From Opitutales bacterium (GTDB lineage: Bacteria > Verrucomicrobiota > Verrucomicrobiia > Opitutales > UBA953): 52,472 nucleotides of DNA. Made by a program: the position numbers and the translations under genes. The notes below the pieces were generated by a model that saw nothing but the letters and a program-made list of their open reading frames with translations, had not been told where the DNA came from and did not search any database. This document shows positions 158 to 24,169 of this stretch, in pieces. How positions within the stretch are numbered: position 1 is the stretch's first letter; each line of letters begins with the position of its first letter. The DNA is taken from contig JAFYWY010000082.1 in assembly GCA_017546455.1 (NCBI GenBank), positions 1-52,472 of the forward strand, written 5' to 3'.

Positions 158-182
158 TTGACGACTTTTAGGGGGGTAAAAT
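158..182 (+). promoter_or_regulatory. PEP-CTERM gene 1 promoter with G6 spacer run
   Basis: A -35 hexamer TTGACG (158-163) is followed by ACTTTTA, six G (171-176) and a -10 hexamer TAAAAT (177-182). The spacer is only 13 bp, against 17 bp in the two sister promoters at 3208-3236 and 23362-23390. Such a short spacer should be poor for sigma70-type polymerase, so this copy is predicted to be weak or off. The leader after it (CCCTC...AAAATCTAAC) is shared with the other two copies and has no Shine-Dalgarno sequence. Confidence 0.7.
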
Positions 183-3207: not shown

Positions 3208-3236
3208 TTGACGACTTTTAAAGGGGGGGGTAAAAT
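3208..3236 (+). promoter_or_regulatory. PEP-CTERM gene 2 promoter with G8 spacer run
   Basis: TTGACG (3208-3213), a 17-bp spacer ending in eight G (3223-3230), then TAAAAT (3231-3236). Spacing and hexamers are near the sigma70 optimum, so this copy should be on. Upstream bases GCCTAAATGCGCCC (3183-3197 region) are shared with the gene 1 promoter. The leader CCCCTAAAAATTAAATTCTAAC matches the sister leaders in pattern. Confidence 0.8.
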
Positions 3237-3274: not shown

Positions 3275-4018
3275 ATGAAAAAATATATCGCAATCGCTGC
3301 CCTCCTTGCCGCAGGAAGTGCATTCGCTAATGCCATAACTGCAACGAATGCAGGCAGCAATGGTACTATCACGCTCGATGGAACGCAGGCCACGGATGCT
3401 CGCTTGGACTTCACGTATAACACGACGACAACGCAAACTCTCACGACAACGGTTGATTCCGTTACGATTTACGGAACAGACGGCTACGGGATGGGTACTG
3501 GGGATGTTTCCCTTGTGTTTAATATTCAAGATACGTTGACTGCAACGAATAACATTAAGCTTGTAAGTACGGGAGCGTCGTCAACGTGGACGGTGAATAC
3601 AAATCTTGATGCTGAAGAACTTTCGTTGTTCAATTCCGAAAAATTTGTCAGTCGTTGGGTTGTTACTGCAGACATTATTGAAAATATTGCAGCCTACATT
3701 GCCAACGATCACATCGACGTTTCCCTCGGAAATGTTAACGGGTTGAAGGATGGCGGAATTGTCTTCTGCCTGAATTCGAATTATTACGCGTCAAGTGACA
3801 TTACTTTTGATAGTAATTATGCGACCATTAATGCCGGAGCGCAGGCTCTTACGCTTGAGGAAGGTGTTCTTTACACGGTGGCAAAAATTACGGCGGATAA
3901 CGGTGCTTCCGTGAAGGGGATCGGCTTTGTTGCAGCCATCCCCGAACCCTCGACGTTCGGTCTGCTCGCGGGCTTGGGCGCTTTGGCGCTCGTCGGCACG
4001 CGTCGCCGCCGCAAATAA
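3275..4018 (+). CDS. PEP-CTERM surface protein 2
   Basis: A 247-residue secreted protein. The signal peptide (residues 1-20, MKKYIAIAALLAAGSAFANA) and the C-terminal IPEPSTFGLLAGLG anchor with hydrophobic stretch and RRRRK tail are nearly identical to those of the genes at 225 and 23426. The central ~200 residues (rich in Thr, Asn, Asp, Val) share no clear similarity with either. It is predicted to be exported by Sec and sorted to the cell surface by an exosortase encoded elsewhere. The core binds or does nothing that I can name. The ATG is fixed by the conserved signal peptide and lies 38 bp after the -10 box. Confidence 0.88.
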   Translation: MKKYIAIAALLAAGSAFANAITATNAGSNGTITLDGTQATDARLDFTYNTTTTQTLTTTVDSVTIYGTDGYGMGTGDVSLVFNIQDTLTATNNIKLVSTGASSTWTVNTNLDAEELSLFNSEKFVSRWVVTADIIENIAAYIANDHIDVSLGNVNGLKDGGIVFCLNSNYYASSDITFDSNYATINAGAQALTLEEGVLYTVAKITADNGASVKGIGFVAAIPEPSTFGLLAGLGALALVGTRRRRK

Positions 4019-9418: not shown

Positions 9419-12400
9419 ATGAAGACTTCCAAGTTTTTCCTGACGACCCTTTTTGCTGCAGCAGCTATGACTGTTTCCGCGCATGCGGCTGAGTATAAAA
9501 TAACGGCATCGGGAGACCAAAAACTGATTGATGCCGCCAGTGGCGATACCGTGACGATTGATTTTTCGTCCAACGACAATTCCTATTTTTATGCGGTCAG
9601 CAGCTCGGCTTCCTATGTCGTAAATGCCGATGTCGTCGTTGTCGATGCGACGCTTCACAACGGCTCCAGCAATAAGACCTACACGTTCAACGGGGCGATT
9701 AGCGGAACGGGTGCGTTTTATTATCAGGCGAACAAGGGCTCGAATACGCAGACCTACGTTTTCAACGGCGACGTCAGCGGCTACTCCGGAGCGATGTCGA
9801 TCGCGTCGAACAAGGTCGGGACTTTTACATTCAATAATAACAAGACGGGTACCGGAACAATCAGCGCGACGAGTGCCGGAAGCGTCCTGAATCTGAACGG
9901 CGTGACCGTCAACAATTCCGCGATTAACGTTACGACGATTAATGTTCGCGGAAAGACCTCGTTGGCCGCCGACACGGTTTGGACCGGCAACGTTTCCGTC
10001 GCTTCCGGCGCGGAAGTCTCGGCTTCGGGCGCGAAGGTCTTCGATTTTGCCGCCGCAACGCTTACGAATGCCGGCACGCTTGATTTGTCCGACGTTTCGG
10101 TTTCGATTAAGTCCGCCATCACAAACACGGGGACGGTTGTCGTGTCCGAAGATACGACGTTCAGTCTCGACCATCTGACGGCTTCGAACGGCGTTTACAC
10201 GATTATTTCCGGCGGTACGCTGAGCGGTAGCTTGGATTACTCGAACTTCTCGCTGGCCGGAGAAGCCCTCTCCAATCGTGCGGTGGTTTCGACCGAAAAC
10301 GGAGTCGTCACGGTCTCTTCGGCGGCTCTGGATCTCATTTGGGCCGGTTCCGCAGACAGCAATCTGTGGACGAAGGCGGCGAACGTCGAAAACTGGTCGA
10401 CGATGGAAGGTGCGTCCGTCGCATTCTCGAATCTTGACAGCGTTACCTTCGCTTCGGAGGGCTACTCGAACGTCCGTGTTCAGGAAACGATTATTGCGTC
10501 CTCGATTGCCGTCGGCGGCGATTACACCCTCGAACTTTCCGGCGACGCGAATATCACGACCTCGGAACTCGCGATTACGGCAAATAAGAGGCTGACGCTC
10601 TCAGGCGACGGTTCTTTCTCCGCGCAAAAATTCTCGGGCACCGGTACGCTGTGCCTGGACGGCGTTGACTTGCAACTGAGCGCGGCAACGACGCTTTCGA
10701 AGCTCGAAATCGGCTCGAAGGGTAGTGAAGTCAACGCTGCGGCGGATTTGACGATTACGGAACTTTCTTTCCAACGCGGTGCCGTTCTTTCGAAGACCGG
10801 TGTCGGCACGCTCCTGCTTTCGGGCGACTTGGCCTTGGCTTCGGGACAGCGTCTGGAAATCAATGCGGGCTTGCTCCACATCGGAAGCGGCACGCCGATC
10901 GCAACGACCGGAACGGGAACGATCGCGCTCAAAAATGGCACGGGACTTTATCTCGACGGGAAAACCTCCGTTCACAAGCTCTCGCAGAATATCGAAACGC
11001 AGGGCGACGTCACGTTGACCTGGAAGGATGCTCCGCAGTCGAGCGCTACGGCGTATCAGTACGAATTGACCGGTGACATTGCCGTCGCGAACGGCACGCT
11101 CTCGATTCACAGCGACACGAACAACTGGGCGAAGGAAATTGCATTTAAGGGAAGCCTCTCCGGCGCAGGAACGGTGCACTACTACCGCGGTTCCAGCGAC
11201 TCCGAATACAATTCGAACGGCCGCCTCATCATTGCGGGCGCGGACAATTCCGGATTTACGGGAACGGTCTTCGTCGAAGCGAAAAACAATTTCAGTGCCG
11301 GCTTGGACTTGCTCAGCTCTCTGAAGAACGCCACGCTCAAGCTCAGCGGTAACTCCGGCGGGCAGGACGCATTTGTGCGCGTTTTGGGCGACGTTGCGGT
11401 CAAGCGCCTCGAAGGCAATGCCGGTTCGCAAATCGGCGCCGGTAACATTCTCCAGGGCGGCACCGTCGGCAACTACACCCTGACGGTCGGTGAAGGTGAT
11501 TACGCCGGGAAGCTCGAAAACTACGGGGTGGCTCGTCAGTACGGAAGCAACTCCAAGCAATACGTTAATTCCGGCTCTCTCTCCCTGCGCAAGGTCTCGG
11601 ACGGCGCGTTGACGCTCTCCGGAACGGTGGCGCTGAAGCGCATCACCGTGGACGCGGGAACGCTCAATCTGACGAGCACGAACGGCGTGACGCTCGAAGA
11701 ATTTGCTCAATCCGGCGGAACGACCTCTGTCAGCAAGAACCTGACGGCTTCGACCTCCCTGACCCAGTCCGGCGGCTCCCTCAGCATCGCCGGTACGCTC
11801 AGCACCGGTGCGCTGAACCTCGGCGGCGCCTCTGCTTCCGTGACGGGTAATGCGACCGTGCAGTCCGCTATTCTCGGCGCCGACTCCACGCTCTTCAAGG
11901 GCAAGCTGACGGTTTCCGACGTGCTGACGGTTCAAAAGGGCACGACCACGATTTCCGGTGTGCTCGATGCGACAAATATCGTCGTCGCCGGCGGCAAGCT
12001 TTCCGCTCCGTCGCTCGCTCAGCATCCGGCTATTTCCCTCTCGGTCTCCGGTGGCGAACTCGTTCTGAGCAATGCAGTCTCGACCGAATACACCGTCGAT
12101 TTGAGCGGCGGTAAAATCACGGGGCTGAATCTTTCCGCCGCCAAGGAAACGAGCACCGTCAGCCTCCACGCGGGTACGCTCGATGCGGCCAATCTCTCGA
12201 ACGGCACCATCGTGCTGTATGCAGAATTTGTTGATGCCGCAGAACGCGACAGCGCTTATCTGAACAATGACGTTGCGCTCACGATCGACGGTTCGCTGAC
12301 GCTTTCCGCGGACAAGACGGTCCTCGACATTTCGAATCTTATTTTTGAATCCGCAGGCGACAAATACGCCCTCTTCAATATCGGCAACGGAGCAAGCGGA

Positions 12401-15400
12401 GAAGCCATCGTTACGGCTCTCGGAACGGTTGCCGGCTTGCCGGGTACCTTCTCGGTTGAAGGCAACTACGTCGTCTTTACGGCGGATTCCGCGATGGAAA
12501 TCGCGATGCCGTGGAACACGCAGGCCGGCAACGACTACTGGTCGGGAACGGAATTCCAGGGCACGGCTATCGGCAATCTCGAAAGCCGCATGGTGCGCTT
12601 CGGCCGCATCCTCCCGGTCGGTACGAATGTCGAAAACGTGAACATTCTCGCCGGTGCCAAGGCGAAGAGCCTCCTCGTTTCCGCTTCGGACACCGATGTT
12701 TACAACCTGAATGCCGCCGAAACCAATGCAAGCCTCACGCTCGATTCCCTGCGCGTGGCACGCGGTACGCTTAAGGTAAACACCGAGACGAAACTCGGTA
12801 GCTTGGAGCTTGCCGGAGGTACCTTGATCGCAAGCGTGAAAAACGCGTTGGCGATGACGACGGATGCGGCGATCAAGGTGGACGGCGCCGTTCTCTCCCT
12901 GCAGAATGCTTCTGCAACCAATGCGAAGAATATCACGCTCAACGGTGCCGCGACGCTCGAATTCGTTAACGGCGCGTTGAATGCCTTGGCGGATAAGGGT
13001 GTCAAGATTACGGGAACTTCCGAAAATACCCGTGCGACGCTGAGCTGGCTGAGCGCGAACACCGACGACGTCGCCGGTAAGGTAAGCTTTACGCCGGGCT
13101 CGTATGTTAATTTCAATGTCACGCAGGGCGTTGCCTCCTGGGGCGCCGGTGCGGCGGAATCGAATTCCGGTAATGTCTATTACAAGACCGGTGCCGGCGT
13201 GCTCTTCCTCGAAGACCCGGCGACGCTCAACGGCGAATTCTTCGTCAATGAAGGCACCTTGCGTTTGGGCTGGGCGGACAATTCCCGCGTCTTCTTGGGC
13301 AACATTACGGTTGACGGAGAAAACTCCGTTCTTCACCTCGCCGACGAAAACTCTTTCGGTACCGAATCCGGTTTGGGCGATGTCCGTCTCGCGGTTAAGA
13401 ACGGCGGTAAGGTTTACCTCTTCAGCGATTTGAACACCGACGTTCAGACCTTGAACGACGTGGAACTCGTGCTCGGCGACAACGCGCTCGTCGCGTCGGA
13501 TCCGAATGCGGAACGCCGCAATCGCCAAGGTCTCATTATCGGTACGGGAACGACCGTGCGTGCGGAAGGCGATGCGGAAATTTCGACGGTTATCCAGCTG
13601 GCTCAGGACGGCGGAGCGACGTTCGAAGTGGTTGCCGGCGCGACCCTGACTTTGTCCGGTGCTCTTGTGGACTCCCTGGAAGAGGCGGAAAAGGGACGCG
13701 GTCTCAACAAGACGGGCGCGGGAACCTTGGTGCTCTCCGGTGCCATCCCGACCGAAGTGGCCAATACTTTTGAAAATTACACCGGCAACACGATGATTTC
13801 GGAAGGCGTTCTGCGCTTTACCGGCAGCGCGGTTCCGGGAAGCGGCAAGATCACGGTTCAGAGCGGGGCAATGCTCGAAGCCGCCGGCTCGGGAACGCTT
13901 GCCTTTACGTCGGAAATCGACGGCAACGGCGACGTCCGTGTGGTGAGCGGTACGGCTCTGTTCAGCTCAAATCTCTCCGGAGTGAATGCGATGGTGGACG
14001 CCGGAGCCCGCTTTGAATTGGCGGAAGAAGCCGCATTTAACGGCTCCGCAAACATCTCCGGCGAATTCGGCGGAAACGGTACCTTCAAGGGAGCTGCGAC
14101 CTTCGGCGAAGGCGCAAAGCTTTATGCCGGTGCCGATGCCAGCTTCCTCTTTGAAGCAACGTCCGTTGCGGGCGAACACAGCTTCACGAAGACGGGTAGC
14201 GGCGATGTTACGGTTGCTGCGGACCTGGCGAATGACTTTAGTGTTGCGGTGAAGGAAGGTACGCTTATGAGCGACCGTGCACAGACCGTTGATACCGTTA
14301 CTCTCTCCGGAGGTAATTTGGGCACGACGGCCGGAGGCGCAGGACGTTGGACCGCTTCCAAGCTCTATGTCGGCCAGGGAATCAGCTCGATTCAGTCGAA
14401 TTTCACCCTCTCCGGTCCGATGGGACAAAACAATCTCCACCTTGAAGGCGCCCTCTACGTCGGCGGTGCCTTGGGCAACGGAGAATTCGGTTCTCTTGAA
14501 GTTGAAGGGACCCTCAATCTCTCGGGAACGACCGCAGGCGCACTTTCCGTCGGCGCTTTTGACGCAGACGGCGTTGTTGCCGGCGGCCGCGTTTATGCGG
14601 ATACCCTGAATGTCGCTTCCACGGTGAAGACGATTACGCTCGGCACGATGGCTGCCGGCGACGTCCTGAGCGAACTCGCATTCACGGACGCCAATTTTGC
14701 GGGCAATATTGATATCCGCGGCACCTCGGGCAAGGTTACGGCCTCCGGAACGGTCACGTTCGCGGGTTCCGGCACCTCCGTCATTGACGGTCGTTTGCAC
14801 TCCGACAATGCCGTGTTCGACATCACCGGCTTGAGCGCGATGCTCAAAGTCGGCGACAAGTTCTCCGGCTCGCTCACGAAGACGGGCGAAGGAAAGATGG
14901 ACGTTGCTCTCGTTCAGTTGAACGAAGTCGAAACCCTGAACGTCGAAGACGGCCAGCTCATCATTGAGTCGGTCCGCAAGCCCGAAGGCGGTGTCGCAAG
15001 CACGCTTAAGCAGGTTTCGCTCGTTGACGGAGCAATCCTCTCCGTCCGCCAAGGCGCTTTGGAATTTGCAAACGGCGGTACGCTCACGCTCACGGACGCT
15101 TCCCGCTATGTCGGCAATGTCCTCATCGGCGAAAATGCGAGTCTGAACATTGCCGATTCCGAAATCGTCGGAACCGTCGAGCTCCTCGGCAATGCCTCGG
15201 TCGCCGGCGCAACGATTAAGGAAATTTCTTTCGGTAAGGTGGAAGTTGCCGACGACGGCGCAGCCTCCTACACGCAGATGACGGGCAAGCTTACCGTGTC
15301 GGGCGGATCGCCGGCTATCAAGGCGGAAGACCTCGCGATTGTCGGCGGTTTGACGCTCGACAATATCTCCGTCGATTACAGCACGCTGGGTGCGGAATTC

Positions 15401-18400
15401 ACGATCGTGAATTTCGAAGAAAGCCTCGACCTGCTCAATTACGACCTCGAATTCTCGGATAACAAGGCGGTACTCGCGAACACGAAGGTCGATGGCCGCG
15501 ACATCTACCTGACGATCGAAAACAACGGGACGAACCCCGGCGGCGCCCTTAAGATTGTTGCTTACGGAACCCTGTTGTGGGACGGCGCAACGACTTGGAA
15601 TGTCAACGGCGACCGCGGCTGGATCCTGACGAATGTCGGCGGCAATGATGATAAACAGGCTTTCACCAACGACAAGTATGTCGGCTTCAATTTCTCCGGC
15701 AATCACCGCATCACGGTTGCCGAAGACGTCAATGTCGGCGGCGTGGTCTTCAACGGTGCCGGCGAATTTACCTTGGACTTCCAAGGCGGTCTCATCAAGG
15801 ACAAGGCTGACGGCAAGGCTGCTTCCGTCTCGGTTCAAGCCGGAACGGTGGTCTTCAACGACAAGGGCCTCGCTTCGACGGACGGTGCTTTCTCCGGCGG
15901 TTTGAACATCGCTTCGGGTGCTTCGGTTAAGACGAACAGCGACAAGCTGATCGGTTCCGGCACGATTGCGCTTTCCGGTACGCTCGCCTTTACGGGAGCC
16001 AACAAGGAATACAATTTGGCGAAGGTAACGACCGACGGTAACGCGGCCGTCCTGAATGTTGCGGGCGCAAGCTCGGCGACGATTGCAAGCCTCACGGGAA
16101 CGACGCTGACGAAGGCGGGAGCCGGTGCTTTGACGCTCTCCGGCGAGGCTACGCTCGGCAAACTGCTTGTGAACGGCGGTGATGTCACCGTCGGCACGGC
16201 CGGTGAAGTCGGCATCGGTGCAATCGAACTCGCTTCCGGCGCAGGTAAGCTTGTCTTTGAAGCGAACAGCTCGCTCGGTAGCACGACGTCTCTGACCCTT
16301 GCAAGCAGCAAGCGTGTCGAATTCGTCGCGACGGCAAGCAAGCTTAACAACGTCAGCCTGGAATCCGGCGCGGAAGTCGCATTCCGCACGAACGGCACCT
16401 TTACCGTCGGCGGAGAGAACGTTGCAACGTTTAAGAATGCTTCGGGTACGGCTACCATCTCCGGCAATTTGGCGCTCCAAGGCGTTGAAAGCGACGGCGA
16501 CGCAGTTGTGAGCGGCGCGACCTTCGAAGTCGCCGATGCCGCGACGCTGAAGATCGACGGCTCCGTCAGCGATGTTGCGGACGCCGGCGCAGGCAATTTC
16601 CTCATCAAAAAGTCGGGTAAGGGCGCTCTCGTCATTACGGGAGACGTTGACACGAAGGCTTCGCTCCTCCTGACCTCCGGCAGCATTGTTGCGGAAGGCT
16701 CCGTCAATTTGTCGGGCGACGTTGAAGTCGGCGGAAACGCTTCCTTCACGGCAGACGCCGGCGGCTGGATCGGCATGAAGAACAAAAACTTGGTGGTCGC
16801 GGAAGGCGCTACCCTGAACCTGAAGTCTTCGGAAGGTCTTTCCGTTCTCAGCAATCTGACGGTTGCGGGCGCGTTGGTAGCTCAGGGAGAAGTTGTTTTC
16901 TCCGGCAGCGAAAATATCTTTAAGTCCGTTGACGTGGCATCGAACTCGCGCCTCACGCTGTCCTCCGAGGTCAACTCGTTCAAGGGCGAAGCGATGAAGT
17001 TGGGTGCGAACGCCGAGCTCGTTGTTGACGATGCACGCTTGAGCGAATCCTCCGGCGTTTTGACCGTCGATGCGGCGGGAACGTCCGTTAATTTTGAAAA
17101 CGACGGAAAGATCGTCTTCTCCTCCGTTTATGTCACCGGTGAACAGACGATGGACGTGACCGGCGACGGGGAAATGGTTGTCCTCGGCGAAATCGAAACG
17201 AAGTTGACCGTCAATATCGCGGCGGATGCCGGAGTTACGATCGACAACGCAAAGACGGTTCAGGTCGGCAAGTTCCTCGGTGACGGTGCCTTGAAGAAGA
17301 CCGGTCGCGGAGAACTCTACATCCTGCAGAAATCGGCGGACAGCTTTGCCGGTACCTTCGAAGCGCAGGAAGGCTCGACGTATTTCTACGGCAACGGCTC
17401 TTTGGGTCAGGCTCAGATGATCGCGGATGCCGAAGTTGTCTTCGCCCGTAAGGCTGTCATCGGCAACAGCGGCAAGGATGTTGTCGCCAATGCCCTCATC
17501 GGCGGCACGGGAACGGTGGCCGTTATCGGTTCCGAAAACTCGCTGACCTTCGCGAACGCGATCGGAAGTGCCTTCACGGGGGCGCTCGAAGCGCGCGAAG
17601 GCGGAACGCTCGTTTACAATCGCTTCGCAGCCGACACCGCACGCAACGTCAAGTTGGCGGATGCAGGTGTGCTGAGTGTTGCGGCCCTCAATGACGTCGC
17701 CGGCGAAACGGCTACGGCGCTCGCTCTCGGCACGCTTTCGGTCTCCGGCAAGGGCAATGAAGTCGCTCTTGCGGAAGGACGCGAGCTCAAGCTTGCTTCG
17801 GTGGCACTTGCCGACACGAAGGGTGTTGCGACGCTCACGTTCTCCGGTTCCGGCTCGGCTTCGGTCGCGGGAAGCATTTCCAAGAATGCCGGCGGCAAGG
17901 GTGAACTCGACCTCTACACGGCTGAAGATTTCTCGGGCACGCTGACGCTTGCAGGCGCAGACAATGCTCACCGCAATACCTATGTCAATGCCGGTACGCT
18001 CGTCATCGAACACGCGAGCGCAGGCGGAACGGGCACGCTCTTCCTGAGCAATCTCGAAAAATCCGTCGTCCGCTTCGACGTCGGTGAAGGGAATGTCGTA
18101 TCGACCGCAGTTTCCGGTGTCGGTAGCCTCGAAGGTAAGTCCGGAACGATTACGAACTTGGACGCGTTTTCCGGAGTGCTCGTCGCCGTTGACGGCGGAG
18201 CCTTCACCCTGGATAAGGGCGCCTCGGGAGTCTTGGCTGCCAAGACGCTCATTCTGAGTGCGGAAGAAGATGCGAAATTGGTCGTGACGACGGATAAGAC
18301 GGTCGCCGAGCTCGATATGGGTGCAGCGGTCTTCTCCGGCAACGGTATGGTCTCTTTGGATTTGGCTGCTACGCAGGAGCTCTCGGTTTACACGTCGAAC

Positions 18401-21400
18401 GCGATTACGGGCACGCTCGAAATCGCCGGCGGCTCCGTCCGAGTCCTGGAAGAAGGTAATCTCGGCACTGCGGCGGTTGCTATCCGCGCCGGTGCAAGCC
18501 TCAATGTTGCGGCGGACGTGTTGACGAATCGCGAAATCTACGGCGAAGGCTCAATCGTTAAGAATACGAGCGGAACGAGCTTTGTAGCCGGCGTCATCAA
18601 CGCGAAGACCTCGGTTTCCACGGGAGCTCTCTCGATTACGGCAACGGGCGAAAACGCACAGTTCGAAATCCGTAACGGTACGCTCGAATTCTCGCAGGTC
18701 TATGAAGACGGCCGCGTGATTTCCCGTAAGACGGGTACGCAGACCTTTAATGCCGATTATGTCGCAGACGGCGTTGCACGCTTCTCGCACAGCGCACGCA
18801 ATTCGAACTCGGTGATTGACGGCTCGTTTGCATGGAAGGCGGACGCCGCAGGTACCCTGATCTTCGCCGGCGGCGGAACGGGCTCCGAATTCCTCCCGGA
18901 AATCGAAAACGGCAATGTCGTCAAGACCGGCGCCGGCAAGTGGCACCTCGACGCATTCTCCTCGTCCGGATCGATTAAGGTCGAAAACGGCGGCGGCACC
19001 TTGGCGCTTGGCGGCTATGTCGGCGATGCAGCCCAGGAAATCTTCATCGGCCGCGACGGCGTTTTGGAAATCGCCGAATTCGGCGGAACGGCCGCCCCGG
19101 TCGTCAAGGGCAAGGTCTCGGGTAGCGGTATGTTGGCTGTTTCGGTCACGACCAGCGAAGTGACCTTCGACGTGACGGGCGACAGCGACTGGGTCCTGCG
19201 CGTGGATGCGGATGCGGCTGTTAAGTACGGCAGCGGTCTTTCGGCCAACAACATTTTGCTCTCCTCCAGCAACAGCACGCAGAAGGCGGGCGGTACGCTC
19301 AATATTGACGTTGCGGCGGGAACGGTTACGGAACTCGCAGGCAAGACGTTCTCGATCCGGGGAACGAGCAAGGACTTCTTGGATCTGCGCAACGCCAAGC
19401 TCGTCAAGCGCGGCGCCGGAGTCTTGGATCTCACGGCATCCTCCGTCGAGCTCAACGGTTTGCTGCTCATCGAAGAAGGTACGCTGAAGGCTGCTTCTTT
19501 CAAGAGCAACCCGACCACCGGCGTTATCGAAGTCCAAGGCAACGGCACGCTCGAAGTCGGCCTCGCCGGCCAGACGGGCAGCCTCGCGGCACTCGCGGGC
19601 GCCGGCTACGTCAACGTCGTCGCGGGAACCGTGCTCGTTGAAAACATCAACGGGGCTCAGACTCCGGAAGAATTCAACAGCGACTTCTCCGGCTCCGTCT
19701 GTGTCGATGCGGGCGCCAAGCTCGTCATCAAGCCTTACGCTTCTTTGGGCAACGCCGGTGACATCCGCGTTCTCGGTACTTTGGAAAATTCCCAGATGGC
19801 CGAATCCGCGCTGAACAAGCTCAGCGGCAACGGTACGCTCGTGATTGCCAACACGCAATCCGATGTCCGCACGATTTACGGCAATGACAACGCGTTTGCG
19901 GGTAACATTGAAATCAAGAGCGGCCGCCTGGTCGTGAACGCATCGAGCTTCGAATCGATGACGAATGCGATTACGCTTTCTGCGGACGCCGCTTCCGGTC
20001 TTGCTCTCCGCAACGACGGCGCAAGCCCGCTTTCGCTCTCCGCACTCGGCGAAAAGAATATCGGAGCTTCCGGAACGTTCTTCCTTGAGTCCGCAGACGC
20101 AAACGGCAGCTTCGTCCTCGTGAACGGCGCAAGCTTCGGCTTCGGTTCGCTCACGCACCTGACGGCGGGTGCCGACTTGGCATTCGGCAAGGGCGCAACG
20201 CTCACGACGGGACTCTATGTCGCCGAAGGCGCAAGCCTCCGTCTCGAGTCCAACGTGTCGCACTCCATCGGACTGCGCGGCGCCGCGGCCAATGCAAGCC
20301 GCGAAGTCGAAGGCGATCTGACCATTGCCGGTAAGCTCTTCGCCGATATTCCGGCTGCGGGAACGACGGCAATTCACGCCAACGGTACGGCCGTCATCGA
20401 AAAGACGGCAGTCGTCGAAATCAACGGCGTGCTCGCCGAAGGCAACGAATTGGCTCTCGTCTCTTCGGATGTTAAGGCAATTGAAAACGGTGCGCTCTTC
20501 CGTTCCGCAAGCGGTGAACGTCTCTCTGCACGTGTTGCCGACAACGCGACGAAGATTCTCGTCGGCTCGGCAACGCCGATCGAAAACCTCGTCCCGAGCG
20601 GCATGGGTACGCTCGCCGAAACCGTCTTCTCGAACACGGATAGCGACATTTACAAGGCCATCTACTGGTCCGGAAACGACGCGGAACAGCGTGCGAAGCT
20701 GACGAATTTCTCGCCGGTTTCCTTCGCCGGTGCGCTCGAACTCTCGACCGAACTGACGAAGTTTGAAAACGACTTGCTCCGCCAACGCCTCGAACAGCGC
20801 CGTTACGATCGCGCTTACTCGGAAGCGGAAGGCACGATCAAGGGTTACGCCAACATCATCGGCGGCACCTCGGAAACGAGCGAAGGCAAGAACAAGACCG
20901 CGAACTACGACCTGAGCCACAGCGGCGCAGTTGCGGGCTTCGACTCCCTCGTCACCTACGATTTCCTCCTCGGCGCAAGCTTCACCTACGACTTCGGTAA
21001 GGCAAGCGTCCACAACGGCGGCGGAAAGCACGAAACGGATACGGCTCGCGTGAACTTCTATGGCATGGCGATGCTCGACGAAGTTTCTTACTTCGGCTTC
21101 AGCGCCGGCTTCGGGGTCTCCGGAGTGGATATGAAGCGCACGAATGCGCTCGAAACGCTCAAGAGCGAATCCTCGGGAACGGACATCTCGCTTTCGACCA
21201 CGCTCGGAAGAATGTTCGTCCTCAGCGAAGCCTACGGCTTGCACGTTTCGCCCTATATCGGCTTGGATTACACCTACTCCCGTATCGGCGGCTTCCGTGA
21301 AGTCGGCGGTGAAAGCGCGTTGGAAGTCGATGATCTGGAACGCAACTCGTTGCGCGGAACGATCGGTGCGACCCTGAACTGGTTGCCGACCGCTGATTGG

Positions 21401-21664
21401 CGCTTCACCCTCGAAGCGGCTCTCCGCCACGAATTCCTCGATTCCGACACGGACGTCGAAGCGAAATTCGTCCGCGGTGCTTACGCGGGTATGAGCGCGA
21501 CGTCGACGGCGTACTTCGGCGACGAAAACGTGATCAGCGTCGGTCCGCGCGTCGAATACCGCATCAATTCCGAATGGGCGGTTTCCGCCGGCTACACGCT
21601 GGAATCCGATTTGGACAACACGACGACGCACTCGGCGAACGTCGGTATCCGTTGCCGCTTCTAA
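9419..21664 (+). CDS. Giant type V autotransporter (4,081 residues)
   Basis: A very large outer-membrane protein. Residues 1 to about 24 are a Sec signal peptide (ends SAHAAEYK). The passenger, about 25-3,760, is a long Ser/Thr/Gly/Ala-rich beta-helix-type region with many autotransporter-associated repeats of the form K-T/S-G-x-G-x-L-x-L-S-G, seen near residues 458, 1430, 1590, 1819, 2230, 2396, 2626, 3165 and 3329. The last ~300 residues are an autotransporter beta-barrel (YANIIGGTSETSEG onward, alternating aromatic strands) ending in Phe (GIRCRF), as barrels inserted by BAM do. Cysteines are very rare. I see no protease, pertactin-like or RGD motif, so adhesin or surface-coat roles are only plausible. 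The ORF is uninterrupted, is preceded by a 178-bp spacer with no clear promoter, and has its own terminator. Confidence 0.94.
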   Translation: MKTSKFFLTTLFAAAAMTVSAHAAEYKITASGDQKLIDAASGDTVTIDFSSNDNSYFYAVSSSASYVVNADVVVVDATLHNGSSNKTYTFNGAISGTGAFYYQANKGSNTQTYVFNGDVSGYSGAMSIASNKVGTFTFNNNKTGTGTISATSAGSVLNLNGVTVNNSAINVTTINVRGKTSLAADTVWTGNVSVASGAEVSASGAKVFDFAAATLTNAGTLDLSDVSVSIKSAITNTGTVVVSEDTTFSLDHLTASNGVYTIISGGTLSGSLDYSNFSLAGEALSNRAVVSTENGVVTVSSAALDLIWAGSADSNLWTKAANVENWSTMEGASVAFSNLDSVTFASEGYSNVRVQETIIASSIAVGGDYTLELSGDANITTSELAITANKRLTLSGDGSFSAQKFSGTGTLCLDGVDLQLSAATTLSKLEIGSKGSEVNAAADLTITELSFQRGAVLSKTGVGTLLLSGDLALASGQRLEINAGLLHIGSGTPIATTGTGTIALKNGTGLYLDGKTSVHKLSQNIETQGDVTLTWKDAPQSSATAYQYELTGDIAVANGTLSIHSDTNNWAKEIAFKGSLSGAGTVHYYRGSSDSEYNSNGRLIIAGADNSGFTGTVFVEAKNNFSAGLDLLSSLKNATLKLSGNSGGQDAFVRVLGDVAVKRLEGNAGSQIGAGNILQGGTVGNYTLTVGEGDYAGKLENYGVARQYGSNSKQYVNSGSLSLRKVSDGALTLSGTVALKRITVDAGTLNLTSTNGVTLEEFAQSGGTTSVSKNLTASTSLTQSGGSLSIAGTLSTGALNLGGASASVTGNATVQSAILGADSTLFKGKLTVSDVLTVQKGTTTISGVLDATNIVVAGGKLSAPSLAQHPAISLSVSGGELVLSNAVSTEYTVDLSGGKITGLNLSAAKETSTVSLHAGTLDAANLSNGTIVLYAEFVDAAERDSAYLNNDVALTIDGSLTLSADKTVLDISNLIFESAGDKYALFNIGNGASGEAIVTALGTVAGLPGTFSVEGNYVVFTADSAMEIAMPWNTQAGNDYWSGTEFQGTAIGNLESRMVRFGRILPVGTNVENVNILAGAKAKSLLVSASDTDVYNLNAAETNASLTLDSLRVARGTLKVNTETKLGSLELAGGTLIASVKNALAMTTDAAIKVDGAVLSLQNASATNAKNITLNGAATLEFVNGALNALADKGVKITGTSENTRATLSWLSANTDDVAGKVSFTPGSYVNFNVTQGVASWGAGAAESNSGNVYYKTGAGVLFLEDPATLNGEFFVNEGTLRLGWADNSRVFLGNITVDGENSVLHLADENSFGTESGLGDVRLAVKNGGKVYLFSDLNTDVQTLNDVELVLGDNALVASDPNAERRNRQGLIIGTGTTVRAEGDAEISTVIQLAQDGGATFEVVAGATLTLSGALVDSLEEAEKGRGLNKTGAGTLVLSGAIPTEVANTFENYTGNTMISEGVLRFTGSAVPGSGKITVQSGAMLEAAGSGTLAFTSEIDGNGDVRVVSGTALFSSNLSGVNAMVDAGARFELAEEAAFNGSANISGEFGGNGTFKGAATFGEGAKLYAGADASFLFEATSVAGEHSFTKTGSGDVTVAADLANDFSVAVKEGTLMSDRAQTVDTVTLSGGNLGTTAGGAGRWTASKLYVGQGISSIQSNFTLSGPMGQNNLHLEGALYVGGALGNGEFGSLEVEGTLNLSGTTAGALSVGAFDADGVVAGGRVYADTLNVASTVKTITLGTMAAGDVLSELAFTDANFAGNIDIRGTSGKVTASGTVTFAGSGTSVIDGRLHSDNAVFDITGLSAMLKVGDKFSGSLTKTGEGKMDVALVQLNEVETLNVEDGQLIIESVRKPEGGVASTLKQVSLVDGAILSVRQGALEFANGGTLTLTDASRYVGNVLIGENASLNIADSEIVGTVELLGNASVAGATIKEISFGKVEVADDGAASYTQMTGKLTVSGGSPAIKAEDLAIVGGLTLDNISVDYSTLGAEFTIVNFEESLDLLNYDLEFSDNKAVLANTKVDGRDIYLTIENNGTNPGGALKIVAYGTLLWDGATTWNVNGDRGWILTNVGGNDDKQAFTNDKYVGFNFSGNHRITVAEDVNVGGVVFNGAGEFTLDFQGGLIKDKADGKAASVSVQAGTVVFNDKGLASTDGAFSGGLNIASGASVKTNSDKLIGSGTIALSGTLAFTGANKEYNLAKVTTDGNAAVLNVAGASSATIASLTGTTLTKAGAGALTLSGEATLGKLLVNGGDVTVGTAGEVGIGAIELASGAGKLVFEANSSLGSTTSLTLASSKRVEFVATASKLNNVSLESGAEVAFRTNGTFTVGGENVATFKNASGTATISGNLALQGVESDGDAVVSGATFEVADAATLKIDGSVSDVADAGAGNFLIKKSGKGALVITGDVDTKASLLLTSGSIVAEGSVNLSGDVEVGGNASFTADAGGWIGMKNKNLVVAEGATLNLKSSEGLSVLSNLTVAGALVAQGEVVFSGSENIFKSVDVASNSRLTLSSEVNSFKGEAMKLGANAELVVDDARLSESSGVLTVDAAGTSVNFENDGKIVFSSVYVTGEQTMDVTGDGEMVVLGEIETKLTVNIAADAGVTIDNAKTVQVGKFLGDGALKKTGRGELYILQKSADSFAGTFEAQEGSTYFYGNGSLGQAQMIADAEVVFARKAVIGNSGKDVVANALIGGTGTVAVIGSENSLTFANAIGSAFTGALEAREGGTLVYNRFAADTARNVKLADAGVLSVAALNDVAGETATALALGTLSVSGKGNEVALAEGRELKLASVALADTKGVATLTFSGSGSASVAGSISKNAGGKGELDLYTAEDFSGTLTLAGADNAHRNTYVNAGTLVIEHASAGGTGTLFLSNLEKSVVRFDVGEGNVVSTAVSGVGSLEGKSGTITNLDAFSGVLVAVDGGAFTLDKGASGVLAAKTLILSAEEDAKLVVTTDKTVAELDMGAAVFSGNGMVSLDLAATQELSVYTSNAITGTLEIAGGSVRVLEEGNLGTAAVAIRAGASLNVAADVLTNREIYGEGSIVKNTSGTSFVAGVINAKTSVSTGALSITATGENAQFEIRNGTLEFSQVYEDGRVISRKTGTQTFNADYVADGVARFSHSARNSNSVIDGSFAWKADAAGTLIFAGGGTGSEFLPEIENGNVVKTGAGKWHLDAFSSSGSIKVENGGGTLALGGYVGDAAQEIFIGRDGVLEIAEFGGTAAPVVKGKVSGSGMLAVSVTTSEVTFDVTGDSDWVLRVDADAAVKYGSGLSANNILLSSSNSTQKAGGTLNIDVAAGTVTELAGKTFSIRGTSKDFLDLRNAKLVKRGAGVLDLTASSVELNGLLLIEEGTLKAASFKSNPTTGVIEVQGNGTLEVGLAGQTGSLAALAGAGYVNVVAGTVLVENINGAQTPEEFNSDFSGSVCVDAGAKLVIKPYASLGNAGDIRVLGTLENSQMAESALNKLSGNGTLVIANTQSDVRTIYGNDNAFAGNIEIKSGRLVVNASSFESMTNAITLSADAASGLALRNDGASPLSLSALGEKNIGASGTFFLESADANGSFVLVNGASFGFGSLTHLTAGADLAFGKGATLTTGLYVAEGASLRLESNVSHSIGLRGAAANASREVEGDLTIAGKLFADIPAAGTTAIHANGTAVIEKTAVVEINGVLAEGNELALVSSDVKAIENGALFRSASGERLSARVADNATKILVGSATPIENLVPSGMGTLAETVFSNTDSDIYKAIYWSGNDAEQRAKLTNFSPVSFAGALELSTELTKFENDLLRQRLEQRRYDRAYSEAEGTIKGYANIIGGTSETSEGKNKTANYDLSHSGAVAGFDSLVTYDFLLGASFTYDFGKASVHNGGGKHETDTARVNFYGMAMLDEVSYFGFSAGFGVSGVDMKRTNALETLKSESSGTDISLSTTLGRMFVLSEAYGLHVSPYIGLDYTYSRIGGFREVGGESALEVDDLERNSLRGTIGATLNWLPTADWRFTLEAALRHEFLDSDTDVEAKFVRGAYAGMSATSTAYFGDENVISVGPRVEYRINSEWAVSAGYTLESDLDNTTTHSANVGIRCRF

Positions 21665-23361: not shown

Positions 23362-23390
23362 TTGACAACTTTTGAGGGGGGGGGTAAGAT
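23362..23390 (+). promoter_or_regulatory. PEP-CTERM gene 3 promoter with G9 spacer run
   Basis: A consensus TTGACA (23362-23367), a 17-bp spacer ending in nine G (23376-23384), and TAAGAT (23385-23390). It is predicted to be active. Its leader (GAACCCTC...AAAAATCTAACTCAGG) shares the pattern of the two sister leaders. Confidence 0.8.
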
Positions 23391-23425: not shown

Positions 23426-24169
23426 ATGAAAAAATATATCACGATTGCCGCGCTTCTCGCCGCAGGAAGCGCTTTCGCTAATGCTGTAGAGCTTTCAGAT
23501 GCGGGCTTTTCAGTTAAGTACCCTACGCTTGCGTCGTACGCCCTTGATAGTAGCGTGTTTGATTCCACAAGTTTCAGCTTTACGTTTACGCTTGCTCCGG
23601 ATGTTGTTGACGTTATTGGAGAGTTGACTAATTCTGCGGCTACGGCGATTAAGCCGACTTTGGTTTCTGTGCAGGCGGGGGAAGCTCATTATGTTGGCAC
23701 AGGGGTCGGGTATTCTTCTACCCAAGCGGGCGTAATTACTGCGGCGGGTATTTGGGGACAAGCAACGAAGGCTTCTGCTACGACCGCTTGTGGCGGTTAT
23801 TTTGGTGGTAGCAATATCAATAATCTTGCTGCCGTTGATATTATCGCAGTTACTGTTAGCCATGAAGCTAGTTCGGGAACTACATTTTTTATTTCCGCTC
23901 TTTCTGATGGCCGCTGGACTGAATATACTCCGGATAAAAATCTTAACCTTAAATGGTCTAGCGGAAACACTGCTCCGTCCGAATTGAGCATTAATACACT
24001 TGCCGGAATTTCTTCTGTGTACGTTTTTGACCATGTAATTTCTTCGGCTGTCGAAGCCCAAAAGATTAACCACGCCGCAGTTTCGGCCATTCCCGAACCG
24101 TCTACGTTCGGCTTGCTTGCGGGCTTGGGGGCTTTGGCGCTTGTCGGCACGCGTCGCCGTCGTCGCTAA
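23426..24169 (+). CDS. PEP-CTERM surface protein 3
   Basis: A 247-residue secreted protein. The ATG at 23426 starts the conserved signal peptide MKKYITIAALLAAGSAFANA; an upstream in-frame extension to 23372 would run through the promoter and is rejected. The C-terminus has the same IPEPSTFGLLAGLG anchor, hydrophobic stretch and arginine tail as proteins 1 and 2. The core (about 21-221) is different from both, except that EAQKI before the anchor is shared with protein 1. Codons in the core are AT-richer than in neighbouring housekeeping genes. Predicted exosortase-sorted surface protein of unknown function. Confidence 0.88.
   Translation: MKKYITIAALLAAGSAFANAVELSDAGFSVKYPTLASYALDSSVFDSTSFSFTFTLAPDVVDVIGELTNSAATAIKPTLVSVQAGEAHYVGTGVGYSSTQAGVITAAGIWGQATKASATTACGGYFGGSNINNLAAVDIIAVTVSHEASSGTTFFISALSDGRWTEYTPDKNLNLKWSSGNTAPSELSINTLAGISSVYVFDHVISSAVEAQKINHAAVSAIPEPSTFGLLAGLGALALVGTRRRRR

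Follow-up and report, generated by a model that had tools for sequence, protein, structure and literature searches.

Promoters in which a mononucleotide run lies between the -35 and -10 elements were found to recur across one genus of Opitutales, mainly on genes for PEP-CTERM proteins, with runs made of G, T, A or C. This genus-wide family of homopolymer-spacer promoters is more interesting than the single copy that an earlier note on the same DNA had described as switched off, namely the promoter at positions 158 to 182 of the window (the whole stretch of DNA analysed, 52,472 nucleotides). Judging from sequence comparison, the G6 run of that copy likely belongs to a slippage-prone, length-sensitive promoter family, phase-variable or rheostat-like, that serves mainly PEP-CTERM genes. 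The window corresponds to contig C74 in a draft assembly of 2.15 Mb and 105 contigs, and all genomes compared appear to be drafts.

The G6 promoter and its relatives in the source genome

The features of the window considered here, all on the forward strand, are the following.

158 to 163: -35 element TTGACG, read from the sequence and aligned with seven sister promoters
164 to 176: 13-bp spacer ACTTTTAGGGGGG, ACTTTTA followed by G6 (G-run at 171 to 176), read from the sequence
177 to 182: -10 element TAAAAT, from the sequence and the promoter alignment
225 to 971: intact gene for a PEP-CTERM protein of 248 aa with the signal-peptide-like N-terminus MKKYITIAALLAAGSAFANA and the PEP-CTERM at residues 222 to 246
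3208 to 3236: sister promoter TTGACG-ACTTTTAAA-G8-TAAAAT, 17-bp spacer, G-run at 3223 to 3230, read from the sequence
3275 to 4018: PEP-CTERM protein of 247 aa (PF07589 and TIGR02595 profiles)
9419 to 21664: one open frame of 4081 codons
23362 to 23390: sister promoter TTGACA-ACTTTTGA-G9-TAAGAT, 17-bp spacer, G-run at 23376 to 23384, read from the sequence
23426 to 24169: PEP-CTERM protein of 247 aa (PF07589 and TIGR02595 profiles)

The hexamers and the 13-bp spacer with G6 that the earlier note had given for 158 to 182 read exactly so in the sequence, the run lies within the spacer of a sigma-70-like promoter, and the note's estimate that about four extra G would bring the spacer to the optimum is correct arithmetic (G10 gives 17 bp). 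The G count itself comes from a site 158 bp from the end of a contig in the 105-contig draft, and the stretch upstream of the promoter is common to the copy at 3208. By eye, no alternative -10 or -35 element was seen that would put the spacer of the 158 copy at 16 to 18 bp, and a promoter scan covering 16- to 18-bp spacers listed the 3208 copy and had no entry at 158.

The ATG of the gene at 225 to 971 starts 42 bp 3' of the promoter. Its product has the PEP motif, hydrophobic segment and basic end of a PEP-CTERM protein and scored above the curated cut-offs of both profiles (PF07589, 24.6 bits, cut-off 20.7; TIGR02595, 20.5 bits, cut-off 16). The proteins downstream of run promoters have signal-peptide-like N-termini and PEP-CTERM motifs and are predicted to be surface proteins sorted by an exosortase. 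The genome holds 35 PEP-CTERM matches to PF07589, and several contig ends adjoin PEP-CTERM genes.

Runs of at least six G, on either strand, occur only three times in the window, and all three lie in these promoter spacers. GGGGGG matched 8 times (overlapping matches counted) versus ~22 times in dinucleotide-preserving shuffles, so G-runs are depleted in the window except in these spacers. Across the genome we found 12 promoters whose spacer holds a G-run, 9 of which have a PEP-CTERM gene downstream. They are given below by contig, with run and spacer length.

C74:158, G6, spacer 13 bp
C15 (L139), G7, spacer 14 bp, precedes a 76-aa small membrane protein, non-PEP-CTERM
C68:5952, G7, spacer 14 bp
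C42, G7, spacer 15 bp
C37, G8, spacer 15 bp
C68:39788, G8, spacer 15 bp
C27 (L130), G8, spacer 15 bp, precedes a 67-aa non-PEP-CTERM protein
C21 (L138), G9, spacer 16 bp, -35 element TTTACA, precedes a 141-aa non-PEP-CTERM protein
C74:3208, G8, spacer 17 bp
C74:23362, G9, spacer 17 bp
C100, G12, spacer 17 bp, PEP-CTERM gene assigned by frame
C11, G10, spacer 18 bp

Since 3 of the 12 precede other genes, PEP-CTERM genes are not the only ones with this type of promoter; conversely, only 9 of the 37 PEP-CTERM upstream regions read in this genome have a spacer G-run. Both points weigh against the explanation favoured here. Half of the genome's 16 runs of at least eight G sit in such spacers. The pattern TTGACN{6,16}G5N{0,5}ANNAT gave 9 matches and its reversed control none. 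A loose reverse-strand control, with 20 of 127, carries little weight, as poly-T upstream of the -35 element reads as poly-A on the opposite strand; the controls relied on were reversed-pattern searches in the family and order genome sets.

The 17-bp spacing that had been attributed to the sister promoters holds for the two in the window and fails genome-wide, where G-run spacers form a graded series from 13 to 18 bp; 17 bp as the value for all sisters is thereby ruled out. The 158 copy is thus the shortest member of that series, in both run and spacer, and not an exception among 17-bp sisters. A spacing of 13 bp falls beyond the range in which sigma-70 promoters usually work. The 158 copy would be the weakest state seen in the family, probably off or nearly so, and we consider it somewhat probable that the sequenced consensus has this promoter silent or at very low strength, either as a switchable off state or as a decayed promoter. 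In this genome spacers of 14 to 16 bp are common, and congeners repeatedly show a 15-bp class, so it cannot be assumed throughout that any spacer below 17 bp means off. With spacers of 13 to 16 bp in most G-run copies, most of them would be weak at once, which counts against control by slippage.

Decay of the promoter, with the run shrunk to G6 and the gene permanently silent or weak instead of phase-OFF, is a possible but rather unlikely reading. No promoter of the class has a shorter run or spacer than this one (G6, 13 bp), and short homopolymer runs slip rarely, so the 158 copy could be locked off and not switchable. Against this, the downstream gene is intact over 248 codons with its PEP-CTERM above cut-off, which is unlike long-term silence, and both hexamers and the flanks of the promoter are preserved.

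The architecture in congeners and its specificity

Upstream regions of PEP-CTERM genes were read in seven congeners. The spacer there mostly contained poly-T (T9 to T12) and occasionally poly-A, poly-G or poly-C. Examples of the poly-T form are TTGACG-GGCACG-T11-GC-GACAAT in G002, TTGTCA-GAGCAC-T11-GT-CAGAAT in G001 and TTGCAT-CGCCAC-T10-GC-GAGAAT in G003, and the conserved flanks can be written TTGACG-GAGACG-Tn-GCGACAAT. Poly-A spacers were found at L197 and L195 (G003/G005), poly-G spacers in G006 (G8 to G9) and once each in G003 (G13) and G001 (G10), and poly-C spacers of C10 to C12 at three G006 loci (L296, L299 and L312), where the -10 elements are poor. In G001 (L083, contig C41), a GTPase-like gene, dynamin-type by eye, has the promoter TTGACAAAGT-G10-CAGAAT with a 14-bp spacer. 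Upstream of a PEP-CTERM gene in G006 (L304, C151:580-1430), a C52 run follows an N gap, the assembly having broken at a homopolymer promoter, and several G006 contigs end less than 100 bp 5' of PEP-CTERM starts.

The poly-T spacers are narrow in length, mostly T10 to T11 with the main spacer mode at 18 to 19 bp, over dozens of genes in several species. Given this mode, the optimal spacer may be 18 to 19 bp instead of 17. A second poly-T class with a 15-bp spacer (TTGACT-NNNN-T10/11-CARAAT-like) was seen in G005 (L236, L241 and L245), G002 (L254 and L256) and G007 (L237), and its existence indicates that spacing alone does not decide activity.

A poly-T pattern blind to the downstream gene (TTGACN{4,9}T9N{0,6}ANAAT) was searched in 61 genomes of the family. 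It gave 51 matches in five genomes of the genus (29 in G002, 13 in G004, 4 each in G003 and G005, and 1 in G007) and none in the 53 family genomes from four other genera, and the reversed pattern had no match in any of the 61. Across the order, four further scattered single matches were found, in other families. Genomes from other genera in the family carry PEP-CTERM genes (20 matches in G009, 14 in G011) without the poly-T promoter. At least 27 of the 30 blind-search loci that were fetched have PEP-CTERM genes downstream, and one more (L249) has a PEPA variant; with such counts, poly-T spacers cannot be a trait of the genus's promoters in general.

For a strict poly-G pattern, the sole match in the GTDB genome collection, which may omit records of the source genome, was in a Treponema MAG, and viral contigs gave no match to this pattern. 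The Treponema locus (L142; Treponema sp. MAG RGIG9695, JAGCDP010000017.1, 3587 to 3616, reverse strand) is a lipoprotein-like gene with the promoter TTGACAACTTTTCGA-G8-C-TATAAT and an 18-bp spacer, and is apparently an independent case.

Run-length variation and the proposed mechanism

Run lengths were compared between promoters whose 40 flanking bases differed at no more than 4 positions, paralogues and cross-species pairs included. The runs, all placed between the -35 and -10 elements, differed in length in 14 of 25 such near-identical pairs. Both pairs without any flank mismatch differed (L191/L250, T11/T10; L172/L230, T11/T12), as did the near-identical G006 paralogues L273/L284 (G8/G9) and a cross-species pair whose proteins start with MKKYITLAALLAVGSAFANAASLGYNSMTD (L187 of G002, T10; L171 of G004, T11). 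Some promoters in G002 and G004 (e.g., L175, L179, L211 and L212) contain a second T-run of 6 to 21 bases, located where an UP element would be. In 19 promoters with two T-runs, the run upstream of the -35 element ranged from 6 to 21 (variance 17.8) and the spacer run from 9 to 12 (variance 0.40). The differing pairs and the variable outer run indicate that such runs gain and lose bases in these genomes. The tight spacer run versus the loose outer run indicates that length is constrained only at the place where it determines the -35/-10 distance, as expected of a promoter tuned by slippage.

We infer that runs slip within populations and that slippage affects transcription. In the mechanism we propose, a mononucleotide run of ~6 to 15 bases would occupy most of the gap between the two elements, slipped-strand mispairing would add or remove bases and shift the -35/-10 distance, and the altered distance would change how strongly RNA polymerase binds. 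With its own run at many PEP-CTERM genes, each cell could have a specific mix and level of surface proteins, heritable yet reversible. As the usual poly-T spacer is 18 to 19 bp and the loss of one or two T would bring it near 17, we regard a rheostat and an on/off switch as equally likely.

A static design appears doubtful. In that reading the homopolymer would serve as a structural spacer under constraint, in a promoter class specific to the genus (e.g., one read by its own sigma factor or by a regulator dedicated to PEP-CTERM genes), and length differences would reflect ordinary slow divergence. The uniformity of the poly-T runs, held to T10 to T11 over dozens of genes in several species, fits such a selected design and counts against control by slippage; the flanks are conserved, and the class is nearly confined to PEP-CTERM genes, as a regulon would be. 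The static reading is opposed by the promoters with identical 40-bp flanks that differ in run length, by the 6-to-21 range of the adjoining T-run outside the spacer, and by the occurrence of T, G, A and C runs, which no single structural or binding role explains. The variety of bases also speaks against a curvature element or a site for a protein that recognises one base, and a G-specific or curvature-specific role of the run is disfavoured by the T, A or C that congeners carry there. The regulon part of the static reading may be true alongside a switch.

It is very unlikely that the G6 is an assembly artefact, i.e., a longer run whose length was misread close to the end of the contig, where the upstream sequence is repeated. 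The proximity of the site to the contig end, the upstream sequence shared with the 3208 copy and the C52 run beside a gap in a congener assembly would suit such an error, but runs of 6 to 12 recur at many loci with consistent flanks, and G6 is easily spanned by short reads. An ordinary sigma-70 promoter with a chance G-run and no regulation by length is scarcely credible: runs of at least six G are not rare in the genome (96 in 2.15 Mb), but all three in the window occupy the same position of one promoter type, and reversed-pattern controls gave zero. The outcome of the blind poly-T search, with the PEP-CTERM genes found at its loci, also makes this reading unlikely.

Relation to known systems

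To our knowledge, known spacer-run switches concern single genes or small groups of genes, mostly in pathogens. The earlier note had named porA and opc of Neisseria as precedents for a homopolymer between -35 and -10. For porA of N. meningitidis this fits, as its poly-G lies between the two elements and transcription is abrogated once the spacer is shortened to less than 17 bp (summarised in PMC7864442); porA differs from the promoters described here in being a single gene for which strain-level length variants are known. For opc it does not fit, as the poly-C encompasses the -35 element (PMC7864442); opc is similar in that a promoter homopolymer tunes an outer-membrane protein, but it is not a spacer-length switch like the one proposed here. 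The better second precedent is tp0126 of Treponema pallidum, encoding an OmpW homologue, with poly-G between -35 and -10 and transcription best at 17 bp (PMC7864442); for this geometry both tp0126 and porA have experimental backing. It resembles our case in having a spacer poly-G on an outer-membrane protein gene, and differs in concerning few loci in a pathogen, whereas here a PEP-CTERM gene family of an unrelated genus has T, A and C runs besides G and a predicted effect on expression. That homopolymer-spacer promoters recur on PEP-CTERM genes throughout the genus strengthens the analogy with phase variation drawn in the note.

Within the Verrucomicrobiota, Akkermansia muciniphila has invertons (group 138) near PEP-CTERM genes (PMC11892184), which likewise represent promoter-type phase variation of PEP-CTERM surface genes but act by DNA inversion and not by homopolymer slippage. 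Slippage-type phase variation has also been proposed for long G/C runs in capsule genes of A. muciniphila (PMC3048395); those runs lie inside coding sequences, and no link to promoter spacers or PEP-CTERM genes was reported there. Our literature search found no paper on homopolymer spacers in PEP-CTERM promoters.

Here the device appears on a large share of the genes for one protein class throughout a genus, and the base is exchanged from species to species. This swap is a natural experiment, pointing to a need of a phase-variable promoter for a slippery run of the right length and not for a particular base. On balance, we favour the view that the genus sets its PEP-CTERM repertoire through distributed homopolymer-spacer promoters that slip independently of one another and number in the tens in some genomes; the exchange of the base between species with the architecture kept would then reflect selection on slipperiness and spacer length and not on the base. 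If true, this would be a second, independent route to PEP-CTERM phase variation beside the Akkermansia invertons, and would suggest that PEP-CTERM proteins in general are variably displayed.
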